Origin: Myxococcota bacterium
GTDB lineage: Bacteria > Myxococcota_C > UBA6777
Assembly (NCBI GenBank): GCA_023150835.1
Contig: JAKLKB010000033.1
Location: 1 to 64,000, forward strand
Length of the DNA: 64,000 bases
Direction: 5' to 3'
Below, piece after piece: positions 44,665 through 56,542 of this stretch; position 1 is the first letter of the stretch, and the number at the start of each line of letters is the position of its first letter. A program made the position numbers and the translations under genes. The notes beneath the pieces were generated by a model. That model searched no databases. It saw only the letters and a program-made list of their open reading frames with translations, and was not told the DNA's origin.

Positions 44665-44862
44665 CCACACAAAGAGAAAGGGTGTTGCTTTGCGCGTCGG
44701 GGGGGTGTGGTAGCGCGAAGCGTGCGTGCCGTCAAGGGCGGAGGAACGGTCGCGAAGTGAGGGGGCTATTGTTTTTGAAGTAGGCTTCGGTCTAAGATGC
44801 GGCGCAGAGGCAAGCGAAGTCAGTTGTTTTTGTCGAGTGGAAGGGAGCTATCGCAGATCGGG

Positions 44863-47800
44863 ATGAAGAACGTGGACGTGGTGATCGCAGGTCGTTACCG
44901 TTGTGCGCGGCTGATAGGTCGGGGTGGCTTTGCCGAAGTGTACCTTGCCGAAGATCTGCGCCTTGCGAATCGCCGCGTTGCGCTGAAAGTGTTGGTGGAA
45001 CACGTTGCGGATGATCCCGATCGCCTTCAAAAATTTCGCCAAGAAGCCGAGATTATCGGCCATTTGACCAGCCCTTATACGGTGCGGGCTTTCGATTATG
45101 GCTACGATGAGCAAGGGCGTTATTACATCGCGATGGAGTTTGTGCAGGGGGAAACCTTGCACGAGTTGCTAAAGCGGCAGGAGCGGCTTTCGATCGATCG
45201 GGCGTTGGAGGTGGCGATCCAGATATTGGACGCCCTCGAAGAAGCCCATCAGATGGGGATTATCCATCGGGATCTCAAGCCAAAGAACATCATGATCAGC
45301 CCGCAGCGCCAAGGCGATATGGTCAAGGTGCTGGACTTTGGCGTTGCGCGGATCTTGCGACAAGCAGAAGAACAAGACGAGTGGACATTGGTGGGGACGG
45401 CGACGTACATGGCCCCCGAACAAGCGCAAGGTCTGCCGGTTTCTCCTGCGAGTGATCTGTACTCTGTGGGGGTGGTCCTTTATCACATGTTGGCGGGAAG
45501 ACCGCCGTTTTTGTCACAAGAAGACCCTGTTGCGGTGATGATCCATCACGCAACCAAGCCTGTGGTCTCGTTGCGCGAGTTACGCCCAGAGCTTCAGATC
45601 CCCGAAGATGTCGAACAGGCCGTATTGAAGGCGTTGGAGAAACAACCTCAGTACCGCTACCAACAGGCGGGCGCTTTTCGTCGGGCGTTGGAGCGCGCTT
45701 TGGCACGCTATCTTGAAGCTCATTATGGCGAACCAGAGGGCGATAGCACGCTGAGTACATCGATCACGCTCAAGGATGTCGAAGAAAAGCTCCGTGCCCA
45801 AGAGGCCGACGCCCAAGCCTCAAGGGCACCTGCTCGCGAACGTGGCGTGATGCCTTCCACTTTGCAAAGCGGAGAGATCCGCGCCCAAGCTGCTTTGCTC
45901 GACGATCTGCACCGTGTCAACGCTTCTCATACATCGCAAGATCCGATGGCTTCGACTCTCGAAGGCTCTTTCGCGCAAGAAATCGCTTCCCAACACGCCT
46001 CGGCGCAAGGCCCCCAAGCGACACCCTTTGCAGGGGCCGAGTACATCGAGCAGGAAGAAGATGAGGATCAATCCACACAGCGGTTGTCAGGTATCCAAGC
46101 CGCTCCCGAAAAGACAGCGGTACGAAAAACACCGACAGATCGGCCTCGACAGATTACCGATTATGATCTCTTGACGCCGGACTTCCCCGCGATCGAAGAG
46201 ATCAAAGTCAACGAGCAAGGAGCAGGGACGCGCTCGGGGTATTATGCAGCGTCGGGTGATGCTCTGCCTGCGGCAAAGCCGCCTGTGCGCGTTTCTGCGG
46301 AAAAAGCGAAAACTTCACCACGTCAAATGGCGGTGTCGGATCTTCGGGGGCCCTCCCCGAAAGGTGGAGAGTACAGCGACGAAGACGGCGACGAGACGTC
46401 GCTGAGTTTGCAGGATGTGGCGGCGCGTGCGTTGGCCGCCAAGGCCCGCAGCGGAAAGACCACAACAACTCGGGCTGCTTGGTCCGAAGAACAGATCGGC
46501 GTCGAAGAACGCGATGAGATGACCTTTTCCGAAGAAGACAGCGAGCTTCTCGAAGAAGTCGAAGAGTTGGATGAACACGGCGAAGATGCAACGCTCAAGC
46601 CCGGGATGTCTTCGGAAGAGTTGATCTACGGCTCCAAAGGGGCCGAGATGCGGGATTCTTCGCTGCCAACAGATCGCTCCGATGCTTTTCAATCGGCTCC
46701 TGCTTCGGTTTGGGGGACTGGCGAAGAAGAAGGCTCGACCCAAGTTGGACCCTCTGTGATGGATATCGCGGAGGCTCCGATCTCCCAGACGTATCCGAAC
46801 TCACAACATCCTCCGCTCTACGCAGCCCAACACAACGCAGCCCCAGCAGCGGGGCCTACCCAAAACAACGCGATGTCAGGGGCCTTTTCACCACAAAACA
46901 ACGCGATGTCTGGAGCCTTTTCGCCGCAAAACAATGCGATGTCAGGGGCCTTTTCACCGCAAAACAATGCGATGTCAGGGGCCTTTTCACCACAAAACAA
47001 CGCGATGTCAGGGGCCTTTTCACCACAAAACGGTCCAGCTTCGGGGATGTATGGAACGCCGCCAAAGCAGATGTCCGGGGCGTTTTCTGCCCAAGGTTCG
47101 ACAAAGCCGACGAGCATACCGCCCGCCTTTGGAGAGCATCGATCAGGCGATCAGATCCGCACGATGGCCCCGTCAGGCCCCTCGGCTGCGCAACCGTCGC
47201 CCTCAGCGATCTTTCAGCCGATCCCCTCCAAAACGTCGGCTCCACCGATGTATGTGAGCAACGGGGCTGTGATGGGTGGTGCCGCAGCTTCGCCTCCCCC
47301 GTCGCCGCCGCCGATCTATCCTGTCCAGCCCACGACAGCGGGGTATCCGCCGCAAGAGCCGACAAATCCTCTTGCACCGCTTCCTGACACGCGGATGTTG
47401 CCCATGAACGAAGTTTCGCCACCTCGGATGCCCAAGGCGGCTTCGCCTGTCCAATCGCTGCTGTCGACGGGTGGCGAGTCTTTGCGCGGGGGGCGCAGCG
47501 AAAATGCGTCGACGATGGAACTCAAAACGGCGTTGATGAAACGTCGATGGTTTGGCTTGATCGGTGCGGTGGTATTTTTGGGGGGGCTGGCGATCTTTTT
47601 GATCAGTGTTGGCGGCGAATCCCAAAAAGATATCGAGAAACGGCAGGCCCAACAGCTTCAAGCCGAGTATATGCGCTCTTTGCAAGAAGGGGATCGGGCG
47701 GTGGCGACGGGCCGTTATCGCGATGCGTTGTCTTCTTACAAGACGGCCTTATTGCACAAAGCCGAGGATCCTGTTGCCACACAACGAATGCAGCAAGTGG

Positions 47801-48114
47801 TGGTGGACTTGGAAGCGATGAACGCTTTGCGGATCGCCCAAAGCTGGCAAAAGCGAAAAAATTATGCGATGGCCCACCACGTCTTGCAAAAGATCCCTCA
47901 GAAAAGCTCGCTTTGGGAAGAGCGCAACAAAGCAATGAATGATCTTGTGCCGATGTATTCGGCCTCTTTGCGTGCGGATATCTTGATCGCACAGCGCCGC
48001 CGCCAATGGAGAGAGGCTTCGCGTGTGTGTGTGCAACTTCAACAGATCGCTCCCCAAGATCGGTTTTTGAATCGATGCCGTCGGGTATGGCGGAGCTATC
48101 CGCCCCCACGTTAG
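44863..48114 (+). CDS. Membrane Ser/Thr protein kinase with long disordered linker
   Basis: 1083 residues from ATG 44863 (MKNVDVVIAGRY). ATG 44797 would add 22 residues of uncertain value. The kinase domain (about 10-275) has IGRGGFAEVYLAED, VALKV, HRDLKPKNIM, DFGVARIL and GTATYMAPEQ. About 290-880 is acidic then Pro/Ser/Gln-rich. It includes five exact QNNAMSGAFSP units (46861-47025) and further MSGAFSAQ motifs. One membrane helix follows (WFGLIGAVVFLGGLAIFLIS). The last ~150 residues outside are helical, TPR-like (EGDRAVATGRYRDALSSYKTA). The substrate is unknown. It stands alone between oppositely oriented genes. The motif in its linker resembles repeats in the protein ending at 1628. Confidence 0.93.
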   Translation: MKNVDVVIAGRYRCARLIGRGGFAEVYLAEDLRLANRRVALKVLVEHVADDPDRLQKFRQEAEIIGHLTSPYTVRAFDYGYDEQGRYYIAMEFVQGETLHELLKRQERLSIDRALEVAIQILDALEEAHQMGIIHRDLKPKNIMISPQRQGDMVKVLDFGVARILRQAEEQDEWTLVGTATYMAPEQAQGLPVSPASDLYSVGVVLYHMLAGRPPFLSQEDPVAVMIHHATKPVVSLRELRPELQIPEDVEQAVLKALEKQPQYRYQQAGAFRRALERALARYLEAHYGEPEGDSTLSTSITLKDVEEKLRAQEADAQASRAPARERGVMPSTLQSGEIRAQAALLDDLHRVNASHTSQDPMASTLEGSFAQEIASQHASAQGPQATPFAGAEYIEQEEDEDQSTQRLSGIQAAPEKTAVRKTPTDRPRQITDYDLLTPDFPAIEEIKVNEQGAGTRSGYYAASGDALPAAKPPVRVSAEKAKTSPRQMAVSDLRGPSPKGGEYSDEDGDETSLSLQDVAARALAAKARSGKTTTTRAAWSEEQIGVEERDEMTFSEEDSELLEEVEELDEHGEDATLKPGMSSEELIYGSKGAEMRDSSLPTDRSDAFQSAPASVWGTGEEEGSTQVGPSVMDIAEAPISQTYPNSQHPPLYAAQHNAAPAAGPTQNNAMSGAFSPQNNAMSGAFSPQNNAMSGAFSPQNNAMSGAFSPQNNAMSGAFSPQNGPASGMYGTPPKQMSGAFSAQGSTKPTSIPPAFGEHRSGDQIRTMAPSGPSAAQPSPSAIFQPIPSKTSAPPMYVSNGAVMGGAAASPPPSPPPIYPVQPTTAGYPPQEPTNPLAPLPDTRMLPMNEVSPPRMPKAASPVQSLLSTGGESLRGGRSENASTMELKTALMKRRWFGLIGAVVFLGGLAIFLISVGGESQKDIEKRQAQQLQAEYMRSLQEGDRAVATGRYRDALSSYKTALLHKAEDPVATQRMQQVVVDLEAMNALRIAQSWQKRKNYAMAHHVLQKIPQKSSLWEERNKAMNDLVPMYSASLRADILIAQRRRQWREASRVCVQLQQIAPQDRFLNRCRRVWRSYPPPR
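46861..47025 (+). repeat. 33-bp in-frame repeat, 5 copies, in kinase linker
   Basis: Units begin at 46861, 46894, 46927, 46960 and 46993 and encode QNNAMSGAFSP each time, with only silent differences. Confidence 0.93.
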
Positions 48115-48226: not shown

Positions 48227-49075
48227 TCAGCGATCGGCTGCGTCAGCGATCGGCTGCCCAAGGCGGATGGCGTCGCCGAGCCGAAGGGGGCGGAGTCGGA
48301 TGTGGGGTTCGAACAGCAAAACCACGGTGGAACCGAGTTCAAAAACAGCCAATTCTCCGCCACGCTCGATGGATGGGGGGGTGGCAAAGGTGTGCGTGTG
48401 AGCGTGCGGACTCGCCCATCGGTTGGAGGTAAAGTCGTGGTAGTAGAGGTGCATTCTACCAACGTTGGTGGCGCCGACTTTGACGAGGGCGACGTGTCCG
48501 AGTTGGGGATGGTGAAGGTAAGAAGTGAGGCGCTCGTTTTCCACGAACAGGCGGGGGAAAAAAGCTACGCTTGGTGGGTTGACGGGAAGCAAGCGCCCGG
48601 GGATGTAGCGGTAGGCTTGGACAGTCGCCTGCAAGGGCGTGTGGATGCGGTGATAATCTTTGGGGCTGAGGTAGATCGTCAGAAATGACCCGCCCCGAAA
48701 GCGCTGTGCGGCGTCAGGGTCGTCAAGAAATTCTTCGAGGCTGTAGGAGATACCTTTGGCTTGGATGGCTTGTGTTCCATCCAAAGGGCCGTGCATGGCG
48801 ATGGCTCCGTCGACAGGAGAGATCAAGGTGTTGGGATCGGGATCGAGGGGACGCAGCCCGGGTTTGAGGCGGCGAGTAAAGAAATCGTTGAAGCAAGCGT
48901 AGTGTTCGAGGGGGTGTTCGGCTTCATCGAGGTTGACACCGTAGCGGCGGGCATACCAGCGCAAAAAGGGGTGCATGAAAAAACGCGGCCATCGTGTGCG
49001 AGCAAAGTGTCCGACCAGTCGGCTGATCAGACGGGTGGGGGCAACGGATAGCAAGTGAAGCATGAGGCTCAACAT
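48227..49075 (-). CDS. psd: Phosphatidylserine decarboxylase proenzyme
   Basis: 282 residues from ATG 49075, with GGGAG ten bases upstream. It is an inner-membrane enzyme that decarboxylates phosphatidylserine to phosphatidylethanolamine. Family blocks are present: FNDFFTRRLKPGLRPLD, the ISPVDGAI aspartate motif, YLSPKDYHRIHTP histidine motif, and the self-cleavage site LGST in FELGSTVVLLF. Cleavage before that serine gives the pyruvoyl alpha subunit. The C-terminus (RLGQPIADAADR) overlaps a short DNA duplication, so the last few residues may be recently altered. It is divergent from the rhomboid-like gene across a 190 bp region with a dyad at 49120. Confidence 0.95.
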   Translation of the reverse strand: MLSLMLHLLSVAPTRLISRLVGHFARTRWPRFFMHPFLRWYARRYGVNLDEAEHPLEHYACFNDFFTRRLKPGLRPLDPDPNTLISPVDGAIAMHGPLDGTQAIQAKGISYSLEEFLDDPDAAQRFRGGSFLTIYLSPKDYHRIHTPLQATVQAYRYIPGRLLPVNPPSVAFFPRLFVENERLTSYLHHPQLGHVALVKVGATNVGRMHLYYHDFTSNRWASPHAHTHTFATPPSIERGGELAVFELGSTVVLLFEPHIRLRPLRLGDAIRLGQPIADAADR

Positions 49076-49267: not shown

Positions 49268-52200
49268 ATGTTCTGGCCACTCACGGAACGCGCATCGAAG
49301 GGAAAACCAGAGTTTGGGCGTATGCCTTGGTTCACCATCGGCTTGATGACAACGTTGTTTTTGGTGTTTGTGTGGACGCGCATCGGGCTGTCTGCGGCAG
49401 ATCAACGCGTCGAACAAGCGCGAGAAGCGCTGTCTTGTTATTATTTAACGCACGATTATACACGCATCCCGCCGAAACATCGGGATCTTTTTTCGTCGCG
49501 TGTGCTGGCGCATGCGCGGCGTGCCGAACTCGCGGTGCAGGCTTATTTGACCGACGAACTTGTCCAAAAGAAGGCCCAATCGCTCTTGGGGGGGGGTGAA
49601 GAGGGAACGGACGAGTGGCGGCAAGAGATGGCTGCCCGCCCCAAAGGGCAGTCTTGCCTTGCGTATGCTTTGCGCCGACGGTTTTTGTCGCGCTCCCCCA
49701 ATGCGCGGGTGTATGTGTCGATGGCGCGATTGTACCAAGCGTCTGCACGCAAATACCAAGAAGAACAAGACCAGCTTGTCGCGCATATCCAGCGCATCTT
49801 GGACGCCGAACAGGCCCATCCTTTGGCGGGATGGGGAGTGCGACCTGCCGTCAACGGGGCAGAAACGATCTTGACGGCTCCTTGGATCCAGCCAAATGTG
49901 TTCTCGTTGTTGTGGTTGTTGTTGTTGCTGTGGCCGATCGGAAAGATGCTCGAAGATCAGTGGCGTTTTCCGATCTGGGGGGCTTGGTGGCTCGCTTCTG
50001 CGCTGCTGTGCAACGGCGTGTTGTGGGTGGTGTTGTCGAGCAGCAAAAGCTTGATCTTGGGGGCGCATGGTGCATTTGCAGGGGTGTTTGCGCTGTGGAC
50101 GATCGTCTATGGCGTAGAGACGGTTCGATGGGCCGTTTGGCTGCCCAAACAGCCCGAACCTCGGGTGTTTGCATTCCAAGGATATTACCTGATCGTGGCG
50201 TGGTTTGTGTTGCAACTTTTCGATACGCTGTTGTTGCAGCGCGCCTCTCCGATCGTTTTTCTGATCCATGTCCTGAGCTTCGGCTTGTTTGCAGGAGCGA
50301 CTTATTTCTTGCAACAACAGCGCTGGTTAGAAGTGGTGTTGGGCGAGCCGGTGGCTCCGACCGAAACAGAGATCGCTCAACAAACATGGCGCACCGATGG
50401 GCAGATCAAGCAGATCCAAGAGCAGCACCGTCAAAAACAACTCAAACATGCAGAAGCCTTGGAGCGCAGCAGCCGTTGGAAAGAAGCTGCGCAGATCTAC
50501 AAAGAACTGATGCAGATGGGCCAACCCTCGCTCGAATTGATGTCTTTCTTTATCAGCACCCGTGAAAAGTCTGGTGATCCCGCTTCGATCGAAGAATACT
50601 TACAAGCTACGCGCTTGGCGTTGTTTGAGCAAAAGCACGCCCAGATGAAGGATCTGTATCTGCGTATGTGTGCAGCCCACGATATCAAACAGCTTTCGCA
50701 ACGCGAACATGTCGCCCTTGCCGGTGAACTCAAGCGCGCAGGATGGCTGCTTGAAGCTGCCGAAGAGGCCGATGCTGCGTCGGAAAAAGGGCAAGACTCC
50801 CCGTTGTTTATGAAAGCGCTGATCATCCGAGCGGAGTCTCTGCTCGAATACGGCGAAGATCCCGAAGCCGCCATGCGTGTGTTTTATCAAGCCAAAAACT
50901 TTTTGCCTTCCTACCCCGACTTTGAAGAAGCGGTGGTGAAAGGTATGCAAAAAGCACAAGCCGCCGTCGACGCCGAACAGATGGGGCCGCCTGTCTTACC
51001 AGCTTCCGAGCTAGAAGCCGCAACTCCCGCCTTTGGAAGCACCTCGACAGGTCTCAACGCCATCTCGGGAACTTCCGCAGGTCTCAACGCCATCTCGGGA
51101 ACTTCCGCAGGTCTCAACGCCATCTCGGGAACTTCCGCAGGTCTCAACACGCTGCGGATGCAAGGACTACCTCGTTCGGCGGCCAAAGTGCCGGTCGCAA
51201 CAGCCAAAACATCATCCTCCACCGCCAAAGCCCCCCCAAGCACGACGCCCATTCCCCAAGGCCCACCCGGAGCCATCCCCCAAGGCCCACCCGGAGCCGT
51301 CCCCCGCCGAGCGGATGCTGGCCTTCCGTCTGACTACGTCCAGCCTCCCCCCGGACTTGACGGCGAAGAAGCCTTGTTTGGTCGAAGCTTTGATGATCCC
51401 TACAAAGAACTCAACGAAGCCCCTGCCTCGGGTGCTTCGTGGGAAGAGATCCCAAGCCTTTTGCTTGCTCGTGCTTCGGAGTATGCTGGAAAGTCTGGCT
51501 TCGTCAAAGAAGATGACGCGAAACTTGAACAAGCTGCCGAAGCCCTCAAAGAAAAAGTCGATAACCTCAAAAAAGTTGATGAAGCGTGGCTTTCCGATGA
51601 CGCAAAGCCCTCCCCAAATAAAGTCTTTTTTGGTGGTGCCGCCGCAGATCCCAAACGAAACCCCTCGTCAGGTGCCTTTTCCCTTGTCCCCAAACCACCC
51701 GTGTCGCCGCTCGCTTCTTCTTCTGCATCCGTGCCTCCTCGACCCGCTCCTGCCGTCTCATCTACCACTCCTGCCGTCTTATCTACCGCTCCTGCCGTCT
51801 TATCTACCACTCCTGCCGTTTTATCTACCGCTCCTGCCGTTTTATCTACCGCTCCTGCCGTCTCATCCCCCGCTCCTGCCGTCTTATCCCCCGCTCCTGC
51901 CGTCTTATCTACCACTACTGCCGTCTCATCCCCCGCTCCTGCCGTGTTTACAGCTACACCACACGCAAAAAGCCCCTCAACATCCCCCAAAAAATCCGAG
52001 GGATGGGACTCTTGGAGCGACGACGCCTTGCCTGCTTCTGAACCTGTCGCTCCTGTGCAGCCCACGCCGCAAGCCGCTCCAAAAGCATCGAATTTCTTTT
52101 CAACCGAACTTTTTTCTCAAGACGCCATCCCTTCGGCGACATCGCTTCCGCCGTTGACCTTTGAAGAACCTTCTTTTGTCTCGTATCCACCGATGCAAGG

Positions 52201-52684
52201 TGAAGTCTTGCAAGGTGAAGTCTTGCCACAAGGGGATGGGGCCGTTGATCTGTTTGGCGATCTGACCTCTGATATCGAAGAGGCCCACCGCCTTGCGAAC
52301 GAATCCGCTTCTTCGGATGCGTTGTTTTCTGTTTTGGAGGGAGGGGCGTTCGATGCCGATGGACTGGGCGGCTCGAACGTCTTGCAGGGAGAAGTCTTGC
52401 AGGGAGAAGTCTTGCAGGGAGAAGTCTTGCAGGGAGAAGTCTTGCCTTTTGCGGAGTCACCTGCTGTGTTTGGCGGATCGCTTGTGCGCGAACAGCCGTT
52501 GTTTGGCGAGGCTGCGTTGCTTGGTGAACAGCCGCTTTCGGGCAGGCCGATGCTTGGGGGGGCGTCTGCTCCCAAAGATCCCCCGCCCTTGTCGCTGTCT
52601 TTTCAGAAGCCACTTGCTCCAAAAGAAGGCGAGAGCCTCTTTGCGCGTTTGCGTCTGCAAGACGACAAAGACGAGAAAAAGTGA
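49268..52684 (+). CDS. Rhomboid-like (probably inactive) membrane protein fused to TPR and disordered region
   Basis: 1138 residues from ATG 49268, with AGAGGGA seven bases upstream. After one N-terminal span (WFTIGLMTTLFLVFVWTRI) and a soluble helical part, about 215-360 forms a rhomboid-like multi-span domain (FSLLWLLLLLWPIGKMLEDQ). The catalytic-serine loop reads GAHGAFAGVF, with H267 where rhomboid proteases have Ser. A later histidine (H334, IHVLSFGLFAG) is kept. It is therefore probably a pseudoprotease. About 385-570 is TPR-like. From 600 on the chain is disordered with in-frame repeats: GLNAISGTSA units, Thr/Ser-Pro-Ala-Val units near 51740-51950, and LQGEV units. It is the first of four plus-strand genes that may form one unit. 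Confidence 0.82.
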   Translation: MFWPLTERASKGKPEFGRMPWFTIGLMTTLFLVFVWTRIGLSAADQRVEQAREALSCYYLTHDYTRIPPKHRDLFSSRVLAHARRAELAVQAYLTDELVQKKAQSLLGGGEEGTDEWRQEMAARPKGQSCLAYALRRRFLSRSPNARVYVSMARLYQASARKYQEEQDQLVAHIQRILDAEQAHPLAGWGVRPAVNGAETILTAPWIQPNVFSLLWLLLLLWPIGKMLEDQWRFPIWGAWWLASALLCNGVLWVVLSSSKSLILGAHGAFAGVFALWTIVYGVETVRWAVWLPKQPEPRVFAFQGYYLIVAWFVLQLFDTLLLQRASPIVFLIHVLSFGLFAGATYFLQQQRWLEVVLGEPVAPTETEIAQQTWRTDGQIKQIQEQHRQKQLKHAEALERSSRWKEAAQIYKELMQMGQPSLELMSFFISTREKSGDPASIEEYLQATRLALFEQKHAQMKDLYLRMCAAHDIKQLSQREHVALAGELKRAGWLLEAAEEADAASEKGQDSPLFMKALIIRAESLLEYGEDPEAAMRVFYQAKNFLPSYPDFEEAVVKGMQKAQAAVDAEQMGPPVLPASELEAATPAFGSTSTGLNAISGTSAGLNAISGTSAGLNAISGTSAGLNTLRMQGLPRSAAKVPVATAKTSSSTAKAPPSTTPIPQGPPGAIPQGPPGAVPRRADAGLPSDYVQPPPGLDGEEALFGRSFDDPYKELNEAPASGASWEEIPSLLLARASEYAGKSGFVKEDDAKLEQAAEALKEKVDNLKKVDEAWLSDDAKPSPNKVFFGGAAADPKRNPSSGAFSLVPKPPVSPLASSSASVPPRPAPAVSSTTPAVLSTAPAVLSTTPAVLSTAPAVLSTAPAVSSPAPAVLSPAPAVLSTTTAVSSPAPAVFTATPHAKSPSTSPKKSEGWDSWSDDALPASEPVAPVQPTPQAAPKASNFFSTELFSQDAIPSATSLPPLTFEEPSFVSYPPMQGEVLQGEVLPQGDGAVDLFGDLTSDIEEAHRLANESASSDALFSVLEGGAFDADGLGGSNVLQGEVLQGEVLQGEVLQGEVLPFAESPAVFGGSLVREQPLFGEAALLGEQPLSGRPMLGGASAPKDPPPLSLSFQKPLAPKEGESLFARLRLQDDKDEKK
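51050..51148 (+). repeat. 30-bp in-frame repeat in rhomboid-like gene
   Basis: GGTCTCAACGCCATCTCGGG recurs at 51050, 51080 and 51110, with a partial fourth at 51140. It encodes GLNAISGTSA units. Confidence 0.9.
52381..52440 (+). repeat. 15-bp in-frame repeat, 4 copies
   Basis: CTTGCAGGGAGAAGT four times, encoding LQGEV. Two diverged units occur upstream at about 52196-52226. Confidence 0.92.
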
Positions 52685-52890: not shown

Positions 52891-53460
52891 ATGCCTTCGG
52901 CGCAGCTTTGCGTGGTGTATGTTTTGTGTGCGTGCTTGATGGGCGGGGTATGGATGCAACGGATGGCTTCGCAAGCCGAAGCACAACGCGAACGGGGACC
53001 AGCAAAGATCACACGAAAAGCCCCGACTCTGCGGCTCGAAGCTGAGGGTGGGCAAGCTTTTTCGTTGGAGCCGTATCGTGGGCGTTGGCGGATGATAAAC
53101 TTTTGGGCGACGTGGTGCGAGCCGTGTCGCCGAGAGATGCCAGCGCTGGAGCGTCTGGCACGTTCCTTCCCACAAGAAAAGCTGCCGATCGTGTTGTTGG
53201 CGGTTTCTGTGGATCAAGAGTGGTCGCTGATCCATGATTTTTTGCGAAAGCATCCGTTTTTTCGGGGAACCAGTCTTTCCATGCGGATCGTTCGCGATGC
53301 GGGGGGTGTGATGGCCCTGCGTTACGGTACACAAAAATTTCCCGAGACGTATTTGATCGATCCCAACGGGCGTTTGCGTGCCAAGTGGGTGGGCGCGCTC
53401 GAATGGGACTCTCCCCAGATCTTGGCGCAACTGCGTCGACTTGTGGGGCGTGCGCAGTAG
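52891..53460 (+). CDS. TlpA/ResA-like membrane-anchored thioredoxin
   Basis: 189 residues from ATG 52891, with AAGGAG six bases upstream. An uncleaved-looking N-terminal hydrophobic segment (LCVVYVLCACLMGGVWM) tethers the domain in the periplasm. The thioredoxin fold has the redox site WCEPC in INFWATWCEPCRREMPALER and the cis-proline loop in KFPETYLIDPNGRL. Such proteins reduce disulfides, for example apocytochrome c or other exported thiol proteins. The presence of a dihaem cytochrome peroxidase and Cys-rich lipoproteins in this window gives possible clients, which is inference. It is followed 21 bp later by the kinase-FGE gene. Confidence 0.9.
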   Translation: MPSAQLCVVYVLCACLMGGVWMQRMASQAEAQRERGPAKITRKAPTLRLEAEGGQAFSLEPYRGRWRMINFWATWCEPCRREMPALERLARSFPQEKLPIVLLAVSVDQEWSLIHDFLRKHPFFRGTSLSMRIVRDAGGVMALRYGTQKFPETYLIDPNGRLRAKWVGALEWDSPQILAQLRRLVGRAQ

Positions 53461-53481: not shown

Positions 53482-55647
53482 ATGAGTCATCGACGCGATC
53501 GCGATTGGTCACAGGATGAGCAAGCACTGCGTGCGGCTCCTCCCCATCTGTCGGAGGGTACACAACTCTCCGCACACGCCATCGCACGTCAAACGTCGCA
53601 GACACCGAGCGGAACCTTTGATACAGCAAAGCGCATCGGGCGTCACTACGTTGTCGAGCGCGTGATCGGTCAAGGAGGGATGGGGCACGTCGTCAAAGCT
53701 GTCCACGATCTGACTGGTCAGATCGTCGCGATCAAGACGCTGTCGCCGCATCTCGCCGAAGATCCGGGATTACGGCAGCGTTTCATCCAAGAAGCCCGAA
53801 CTCTCGCATCGTTCGATCATCCTAACCTTATCCCGTTGTACACATTCCTCGAAGAAAACGGCCAATTCTTCTTGGTGATGCAGTTTATCGACGGCCAAGA
53901 TCTCGACAGTATGTTTCGCGGAACCCGTGGGCTGGATATCTCGTTTACAGTCTCCGTCTTTTATCAAACCCTTGATGGTTTGGCTTACGCCCACCGTCAC
54001 GGCGTGGTCCATCGCGATATCAAACCAGCCAATATCCTTGTGATGCAAGATGGCCGCGTTAAATTGACGGACTTTGGGATCGCTCGGATCTCTGGGGGCA
54101 ACCGCTTAACGAAGGCGGGTGTGCCGGTGGGGACGGTGTTTTACATGGCCCCCGAACAAGTCCAAGGAGTCGAAGCAGAGCCACGTGCGGATCTGTACGC
54201 TGCGGGCGTCAGTCTGTTTGAAGTCCTGACAGGCAGGCTTCCTTTTGAAGGCGATGATTATGCCGTTCGCAAGGGGCATGTCGAAACTCCCCCTCCTGAT
54301 CCCCGCATCTATCGGCCCGATATCCCGCCCGATCTCGTCAATATCATCCAAAAAGCCATGGCAAAACGTCCCGAAGAGCGCTTTCAAACCGCAGAAGCGT
54401 TCCGCGACGCGCTCGGATTGATCGCGGAGAACATGGGATACCAAGACGGTCTCCCTTGGGACAATGAAGAACGCCCCACCATGCAAGAAGTGCCAGCCGT
54501 CGTGATCCCCGCAGCGCAAGCCCGCCCGATCCCTGTGGGGGCGACCGCACAGCATACACTCCAAGCCAAACCACCCGCCCCGATTCCTGCCGCAGAAGCG
54601 CGTAAACGTCCCGAACTTCCGCTGCTTCAAGCCAACAGTGGCCTGCCCCACGCACTCGCGGCACAGCCTGTTGTGCCGGGGCATCCTGCTCACCCTGCGG
54701 TGTCTCCCGGGTCTGGGTCTTATCCAGCAGCCCAGAGAAATGCCCCGCAACGCACTGCCTCTGCCACACCAAACCATCCCTATCCCACCGCCGAACATGC
54801 CGCACGTTCGGCCAAAAACAACCTTCCTCCCCAAGCTTACGCTGCCTCTTCGGCTGTTTTGCCCAAAGCTCCGCTGTTTTTGTCTTCACCGCCTGCGCGC
54901 CCGACCCATACTGCCGCCCCCGCTCGTATCCTTACGCGTGATGGAGCCGAGATGATCTTGATCCGCGCAGGCTCTTTTTGGATGGGACACAACAAGCTCG
55001 ATCCCGATGCAAGGCCGCTTCGGGAGCTTTACCTCAACGACTTCTACGTCGACCGTTATCCCGTGACCAACGAACTGTACCAGCGCTTTGTCAGCGAAAC
55101 AGGTTACCCACCGCCGACGCACTGGTGGGACCCTCGCAAACACAACGGATTGTTCTATCCCCTCGAACAGTCGATCCATCCGATCACCAACATCCGCTAC
55201 GAAGATGCTTTGGTCTATTGTCAATGGGCTGGCAAGCGCCTTCCGACCGAAGCTGAGTGGGAAAAAGCCTGCCGACACACCGATCAACGCCTCTTTCCTT
55301 GGGGAGATCATTGGCAAGAAGGCCGTGCCAACTTTGGCCGCCCTGCGACTTCCCCTGTCAACCAATTCCCTCAAGGGCAAAGCCCTTATGGCGTGTTCGA
55401 TCTGCTCGGAAACGTCTGGGAATGGGTGGCCGATTGGTACACGGTGGATGCTTATCGACATCTTCCACCCAAAAATCCAAGAGGCCCAGCACACGGGCAA
55501 TATCGAATCGTGCGTGGCGGATCACATAGCGATCGGCCCGGCACGATCCATGTGATCACAAGGGGGTTTCGACCGCCCGATCTGCCCGGGTCTTCGCTGG
55601 GATTCCGTTGCGCAATGGATATCCCCGATCTCTCGACTCCTCCCTAA
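53482..55647 (+). CDS. Ser/Thr kinase fused to FGE-sulfatase-type domain
   Basis: 721 residues from ATG 53482, with GAGGAAG upstream. The kinase domain (about 50-310) has GQGGMGHVVKA, VAIKTL, H177-R-D179 in HRDIKPANIL, DFGIARI and YMAPEQ. A Pro/Ala/His linker (about 330-480) follows. The C-terminal ~230 residues match the FGE/SUMF1 fold (IRAGSFWMGHNKLDPDARPL, RLPTEAEWEKACR, DLLGNVWEWVADWY, RIVRGGSHSD). The cysteine pair used by true formylglycine-generating enzymes is not evident, so this is probably a non-catalytic binding module, as in other bacterial kinase-FGE fusions. No membrane span was seen, so it is likely cytosolic. It lies 21 bp after the thioredoxin gene. Confidence 0.93.
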   Translation: MSHRRDRDWSQDEQALRAAPPHLSEGTQLSAHAIARQTSQTPSGTFDTAKRIGRHYVVERVIGQGGMGHVVKAVHDLTGQIVAIKTLSPHLAEDPGLRQRFIQEARTLASFDHPNLIPLYTFLEENGQFFLVMQFIDGQDLDSMFRGTRGLDISFTVSVFYQTLDGLAYAHRHGVVHRDIKPANILVMQDGRVKLTDFGIARISGGNRLTKAGVPVGTVFYMAPEQVQGVEAEPRADLYAAGVSLFEVLTGRLPFEGDDYAVRKGHVETPPPDPRIYRPDIPPDLVNIIQKAMAKRPEERFQTAEAFRDALGLIAENMGYQDGLPWDNEERPTMQEVPAVVIPAAQARPIPVGATAQHTLQAKPPAPIPAAEARKRPELPLLQANSGLPHALAAQPVVPGHPAHPAVSPGSGSYPAAQRNAPQRTASATPNHPYPTAEHAARSAKNNLPPQAYAASSAVLPKAPLFLSSPPARPTHTAAPARILTRDGAEMILIRAGSFWMGHNKLDPDARPLRELYLNDFYVDRYPVTNELYQRFVSETGYPPPTHWWDPRKHNGLFYPLEQSIHPITNIRYEDALVYCQWAGKRLPTEAEWEKACRHTDQRLFPWGDHWQEGRANFGRPATSPVNQFPQGQSPYGVFDLLGNVWEWVADWYTVDAYRHLPPKNPRGPAHGQYRIVRGGSHSDRPGTIHVITRGFRPPDLPGSSLGFRCAMDIPDLSTPP

Positions 55648-55678
55648 ATCTTTCCCTCACCAAACAAAGATAGACGTG

Positions 55679-56542
55679 ATGCAACATACGGATGCGTTGA
55701 TTGAATTGCTGTACACCGATCGATTTGCAGAAGCCCTGCGGTTGTGCGGCTTGGGTTATGAGCCGATCGAGTGTGCTTATGGGGGCGATGGCTCGGTGCT
55801 TGGAGCGTTTGCGATGGACCATCACGGCAGCGAGTCATGGCGAGAAGGCGTGGCTCTGCGCGCTTGCCGCGATCACTACGCAGCAAGGAAGCAAGATCCG
55901 AGATTCGTTGTGACGGGAACCCCCGACGCAGACGCCGTTTTGGCGATCATCGCCTTGGCGGGGTTGGTCCCTGCTTCACAGATCCCCGAGGCCTTTTACG
56001 AACTGGTCAACTTGCACGATGTGGATCCTGTCCCGCTGGATCTGTTGTCTTTGCCGTTTGGCGAAGAGCTGTTGTTTTTTCAACAGCTCGAACACCTACG
56101 ACGCGATCAAGCCTCTTTTTTCCGTGCGATCGACGAGATGCGTCGCTTGTTGTTGGGGGGCTTGCAGTCCAAGCAACGCACGATGGTGCGACGGCGCGAA
56201 GAACGGCGGATCGAGATGGCCGAGACCTCTTCTCTCGAACCGATCGGGGATGCCGTGTTGTTGGTGGAAAGCCGCGTGTGGGGATTTGATCGTTGGTATC
56301 GAAAAGCACCGTTGGTCGTGTCTTATAGTCAACGAGGTGCTTCGATTACGGTGGGATGTCGCAGCGTCGAGGTGGCCGAAGCATTGTGCGGAGAAGGCGG
56401 ACTGATGAGGGTTTTTGCACATCTGGGCTACGGATGGGGAGGCCGAGAGTCGATCGGAGGAAGCCCGCGAGGCGTGGTGTTTTCCTTCGATCAAGCCCGC
56501 GAAGCCGCCCACAAGATCGCTGCGTGGCTTGAGCAAAAGTGA
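55679..56542 (+). CDS. Hypothetical protein with DHH-like motifs
   Basis: 287 residues from ATG 55679. The ribosome site is weak, and translation may be coupled to the kinase-FGE gene 31 bp upstream. The protein is soluble and alpha/beta. Two acidic/histidine clusters, GAFAMDHHGSES (about residue 45) and VTGTPDADAVLAIIALAG (about 80), resemble metal-binding motifs of DHH-type phosphoesterases but come in the reverse order. The C-terminal half has YGWGGRESIGGSPRG, a glycine-rich loop like the DHHA1 nucleic-acid/nucleotide-binding segment. A divergent DHH-superfamily hydrolase is a reasonable guess and unproven. Confidence 0.75.
   Translation: MQHTDALIELLYTDRFAEALRLCGLGYEPIECAYGGDGSVLGAFAMDHHGSESWREGVALRACRDHYAARKQDPRFVVTGTPDADAVLAIIALAGLVPASQIPEAFYELVNLHDVDPVPLDLLSLPFGEELLFFQQLEHLRRDQASFFRAIDEMRRLLLGGLQSKQRTMVRRREERRIEMAETSSLEPIGDAVLLVESRVWGFDRWYRKAPLVVSYSQRGASITVGCRSVEVAEALCGEGGLMRVFAHLGYGWGGRESIGGSPRGVVFSFDQAREAAHKIAAWLEQK

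Follow-up and report, generated by a model that had tools for sequence, protein, structure and literature searches.

To our knowledge, rhomboid pseudoproteases such as the iRhoms and Derlins have been studied almost exclusively in eukaryotes. In the animal pseudoproteases iRhom1 and iRhom2 (RHBDF1/2) the rhomboid core lacks catalytic residues, a large cysteine-containing extracytosolic domain separates TM1 from TM2, and binding motifs are carried on a long cytosolic region (PMC6451368). An inactive rhomboid fold is also found in the Derlins and TMEM115 (DUF1751). In the open-licence literature on bacterial rhomboid pseudoproteases the main case is Bacillus subtilis YqgP (GluP), a rhomboid with C-terminal TPR motifs and a protease-independent adaptor role (PMC7231995).

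The protein described here is encoded in the window, the 64,000-nucleotide stretch of DNA that was analysed (Table 1). Like the iRhoms, it combines a dead rhomboid core with a cysteine-containing domain in loop 1 and a long region that is predicted to be cytosolic. The details differ, however. Its cytosolic extension is predicted to be C-terminal, whereas that of the iRhoms is N-terminal; six transmembrane helices are predicted, compared with seven; and loop 1 has two invariant cysteines in the window family, against 16 conserved cysteines in the iRhom IRHD. The GPx signature of iRhoms is absent from the window protein, which has GAHG, the proline being found only in one relative, G003a, which keeps the serine. 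Unlike those of the iRhoms, its extra domains have no family match.

The likeness to YqgP would lie in the joining of a bacterial rhomboid to C-terminal TPR motifs, to which the window protein gives weak matches. YqgP is an active protease with an extracellular TPR domain and an N-terminal cytosolic sensor domain, and neither the loop-1 domain nor the low-complexity tail of the window protein has been described for it. Two members of the window family give weak matches to DUF1751 (best E 0.01), but Derlins and TMEM115 are eukaryotic and unlike the window protein in architecture. Homology to the canonical GlpG-type rhomboids covers TM2–TM6. Two paralogs from the same genome, L034 and L044, carry a TPR fusion but keep the full H/H/N/S/H catalytic set, and are not matched by the loop-1 profile. 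By the sequence features compared, the window protein is a member of neither the iRhom nor the YqgP type.

Table 1. Features of the pseudo-rhomboid gene, its product and its neighbours (residue numbers refer to the window protein).
Feature	Coordinates	Strand	Basis
psd, phosphatidylserine decarboxylase, divergent neighbour	48227..49075	-	PF02666, E 2.3e-57
Pseudo-rhomboid gene, 1138 aa	49268..52684	+	stop-free open frame; orthologs in 5/5 phylum genomes
TM1 (residues ~20-41)	49325..49390	+	hydropathy peak, 6/6 members
Loop-1 domain (~44-203), predicted periplasmic	49397..49876	+	between TM1 and TM2
Rhomboid-like TM2-TM6 (~206-349)	49883..50314	+	hhalign 98.5%, E 1.6e-15
GAHG at GxSG position (265-268), His267 for catalytic Ser	50060..50071	+	hhalign, hmmalign
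His334, counterpart of TM6 catalytic His	50267..50269	+	hhalign, hmmalign
Helical TPR-like region (~385-575), predicted cytosolic	50420..50992	+	weak profile matches, dN/dS
Low-complexity, repeat-rich tail (~576-1138)	50993..52681	+	composition, tandem repeats
Conserved tail motif SWEEIPSLLL (724-733)	51437..51466	+	family alignment
21-bp tandem repeat, 9.6 copies, encoding A/P/S/T-rich heptads	51744..51945	+	repeat analysis
Second tail motif WDSWSDDALP (913-922)	52004..52033	+	weak; related W-rich motif in most members
TlpA/ResA-like membrane-anchored thioredoxin (WCEPC), downstream	52891..53460	+	conserved gene order
Ser/Thr protein kinase with C-terminal FGE-sulfatase domain	53482..55647	+	PF00069, E 2.8e-54; PF03781, E 1.1e-55; synteny
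Conserved protein further downstream, no match in Pfam or NCBIfam	55676..56542	+	conserved gene order

Gene family and rhomboid ancestry

The phylum of the window genome (G000) is represented in the GTDB-based collection by five genomes, all from one family, and each of them carries the pseudo-rhomboid gene; G003 has two copies, bringing the number to six. A profile built from TM1 and the loop-1 domain matched nothing in the 381 other genomes; among the 386 genomes the loop-1 domain is confined to this phylum. Protein and DNA pattern searches found no further members in viral_contigs. The second G003 copy (L025) is a paralogous pseudo-rhomboid with GMGG and a glutamine for the TM6 histidine; it lies outside the conserved gene cluster, with a RecN-like gene nearby. 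The window genome also has four further rhomboids on other contigs (L034, L044, L040 and L030) with intact catalytic residues, several of which carry fused TPR-like or zinc-ribbon (TFIIB-type) domains, and G003 has about seven rhomboids.

Frame and translation confirm the open reading frame, the GAHGAF loop and the later histidine as they were first reported. A GAGGG sequence precedes the ATG at 49268, and the family alignment begins at or near this methionine; a GTG upstream, at 49055, is a possible longer start. A shadow ORF was ruled out for 49268-52684, stops interrupting the reverse frame, and a promoter scan gave results at chance level. Against a closely related ortholog, which matches at 92% along the first 644 residues, dN/dS is 0.18 for the whole gene: loop 1 and TM2-6 both stand at 0.13, residues 351-575 at 0.115 and the tail at 0.24. 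From the overall value and that of the membrane core, we conclude that the gene is maintained by purifying selection; the overall value, together with the presence of the gene in five genomes, rules out a decaying pseudogene.

On its own, the window protein scores 17.6 bits against the Pfam rhomboid model, below the cut-off of 22.6, and its polytopic segment could be thought a helical membrane domain of other descent, whose likeness to rhomboids is one of composition. Three orthologs do reach the cut-off, however (G003a, 34.0 bits; G002, 29.2; G003b, 22.7), and a profile of the family TM2-6 aligns with 24 canonical bacterial rhomboids at a probability of 98.5% (hhalign, E 1.6e-15) over 156 columns. 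The probability is 98.4% when G003a, the most rhomboid-like member, is left out and 93% for the window genus alone, whereas a reversed control gives 0.8%. This alignment pairs GAHG with GASG and His334 with the canonical TM6 histidine, and hmmalign gives the identical register. Structure prediction contributed nothing usable: AlphaFold, for which the input rows were the window protein and L017 only, 92-93% identical, gave a mean pLDDT of 45.8 for residues 1-585 and 49.3 for residues 185-358, and a Foldseek search with these low-pLDDT models returned no match. Sequence searches of the PDB with the rhomboid segment or the loop-1 profile found no meaningful relative. Because the two-sequence AlphaFold models are of such low confidence, the assignment of the rhomboid fold rests on the profile evidence, and with both landmarks in register and a negative reversed control, a resemblance by composition is highly improbable. 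We conclude from the profiles that TM2-6 of the window protein descend from rhomboids. The preliminary description had named residues 215-360 for alignment with GlpG; the domain is there, but its span is corrected to about 206-349, and the loop-1 domain in front of it had been missed.

Loss of the catalytic residues

Both alignment methods place His267 at the position of the GxSG serine, as had been proposed. The loop L264-G-A-H-G-A-F-A271 holds no serine, which excludes, at the level of sequence, an alternative serine in the catalytic position. The loss extends further than was at first claimed: the TM2 HxxxN positions are occupied by Ser213 and Leu217 in the window protein, and H145, H150 and N154 (GlpG numbering) are kept in none of the six family copies. 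Alignment to the rhomboid profile thus identifies the window protein as a rhomboid that has lost its catalytic serine and the His and Asn residues of TM2.

A survey of the loop residue gives a sharp contrast. We read the positions equivalent to GlpG H145, H150, N154, G199, S201 and H254 in 52 rhomboids, comprising paralogs from the five genomes and the best scorers of other bacteria; in this set, which leans towards high Pfam scores, all 52 keep the serine and every other position read, save H145 in one truncated sequence, which does not reach that position. In the family copies G000, G001, G002, G003a, G003b and G004, in contrast, the S201 position is H, H, S, S, G and H respectively, so that the histidine of the window protein is no family hallmark. 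The H254 position, in the same order, is H, H, Q, H, Q and Y, the three non-histidine readings being taken from the family alignment since hmmalign left this stretch unaligned in those copies. The persistence of the later histidine therefore holds for the window protein, as His334, but for only three of the six copies. A metal site formed by His267 and His334 was considered and ruled out, as the pair is not conserved in the family.

In the tree of the family copies two pairs have full support, G000/G001 and G002/G004, and the S201 and H254 states are scattered over it; we conclude that the dyad has been damaged more than once. The Ser-His pair is retained in G003a alone, as Ser260, within GPSG, and His327. 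This copy, which also scores highest of the six against Pfam, raises the question whether the family is partly proteolytic: G003a would then be active through a minimal Ser-His dyad, whereas the window protein would have become inactive recently or would use another mechanism. We regard this as quite unlikely, given that G003a, too, lacks H145, H150 and N154, that serine is missing at 201 in four of the six copies and histidine at 254 in three, and that no serine is present in the window loop.

Bacterial pseudo-rhomboids fused to such domains had been called scarcely described. This needs qualification on two counts: TPR-rhomboid fusions are known from YqgP (PMC7231995) and are present in the intact L034 and L044, and, among low scorers from two unrelated genomes, the second ORF of L086 and L085 are rhomboid-like but without catalytic residues. 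Dead rhomboids therefore exist elsewhere in bacteria. The inactive ORF of L086 (from base 1155) lies directly 3' of an intact rhomboid, in the manner of a tandem active/inactive pair.

Added domains and gene neighbourhood

The loop-1 domain comprises ~160 residues. Cys57 and Cys130 are invariant in all six copies, the remaining cysteines being variable, and this pair is compatible with a periplasmic disulfide. Since no further hydrophobic segment follows TM6, the rest of the protein is predicted to be cytosolic, and it is on this topology that the cytosolic place given to the TPR region in the preliminary description depends. Residues ~385-575 are TPR-like, though weakly so by Pfam, in which the window protein matches TPR_16 at E=1.3; TPR models are matched by three of the six family members (best E 0.005), and the family profile matches designed TPR-derived proteins (E 2.5e-4).

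The tail, initially described as about 550 disordered residues, is indeed low-complexity and repeat-rich over residues ~576-1138, with 56% P/S/T/A/G/Q and several repeat arrays; disorder is suggested by this composition. The arrays are not conserved from genus to genus, and we do not regard them as functional units. One short motif, SWxELPSLLL, is conserved, with W725, P729 and L731 invariant in the family alignment. A search of the five genomes with a profile of this motif found only the pseudo-rhomboid family, the next match having E 0.2, and sharing of the motif with other proteins encoded there is thereby ruled out.

The gene keeps its neighbours. All five genomes have a psd gene near it on its divergent side; a 5'-nucleotidase gene intervenes in G002, and a homologue of that gene occupies the same place in G004. 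Downstream, the contig continues in four genomes, and each of these preserves the order pseudo-rhomboid, TlpA-like thioredoxin, kinase and family-less protein. The FGE-sulfatase domain of the downstream kinase is SUMF1-like, and the G003 counterpart aligns in the kinase part only. A second Ser/Thr kinase is encoded at 44797-48114 (+). It has a transmembrane segment around residues 917-942, and a region rich in QNNAMSGAFSP repeats that resembles the pseudo-rhomboid tail in style. Purifying selection and the conserved neighbours together indicate a functional pseudoprotease.

One such function would be that of a quality-control adaptor for the membrane AAA protease FtsH, by analogy with catalytically dead YqgP, whose S288A mutant presents MgtE to FtsH uncut (PMC7231995). 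Both proteins carry TPR-like regions, but that of YqgP is extracellular whereas that of the window protein is predicted to be cytosolic, and no ftsH gene lies in the conserved neighbourhood; we consider this role unlikely.

A proposed role as membrane adaptor or scaffold

Taken at the level of sequence, the gene probably encodes a rhomboid pseudoprotease that acts as a client-binding membrane adaptor or scaffold. Its nearest analogues would be the iRhoms in layout and, in principle, YqgP in its adaptor role. Both termini would lie in the cytosol (N-in/C-in), loop 1 would form a disulfide-bonded domain on the periplasmic side, and the six-helix bundle could still bind the transmembrane segments of clients without cutting them. 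Loop 1 may sense or bind in the periplasm, while recruitment of cytosolic partners may fall to the TPR-like region together with the conserved motif of the tail. Gene order suggests that the loop-1 cysteines may be a target of the TlpA-like thioredoxin, and the tail a substrate for phosphorylation by the co-encoded Ser/Thr kinase. A more specific version, in which the family is an independently arisen bacterial counterpart of the iRhoms, a phylum-wide scaffold that connects a redox-controlled periplasmic domain to cytosolic kinase signalling and has one dyad-bearing relative, is possible but rather doubtful.

If the adaptor or scaffold reading is true, a bacterial family that has both dyad-bearing and dyad-less copies, and in which TM1 and TM2 are separated by an extra domain, would represent a separate conversion of protease to scaffold in bacteria. 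Comparison of the two kinds of copy could dissect that conversion, and the gene cluster, with its thioredoxin, kinase and phosphatidylserine decarboxylase, offers a concrete place in which to search for partners.
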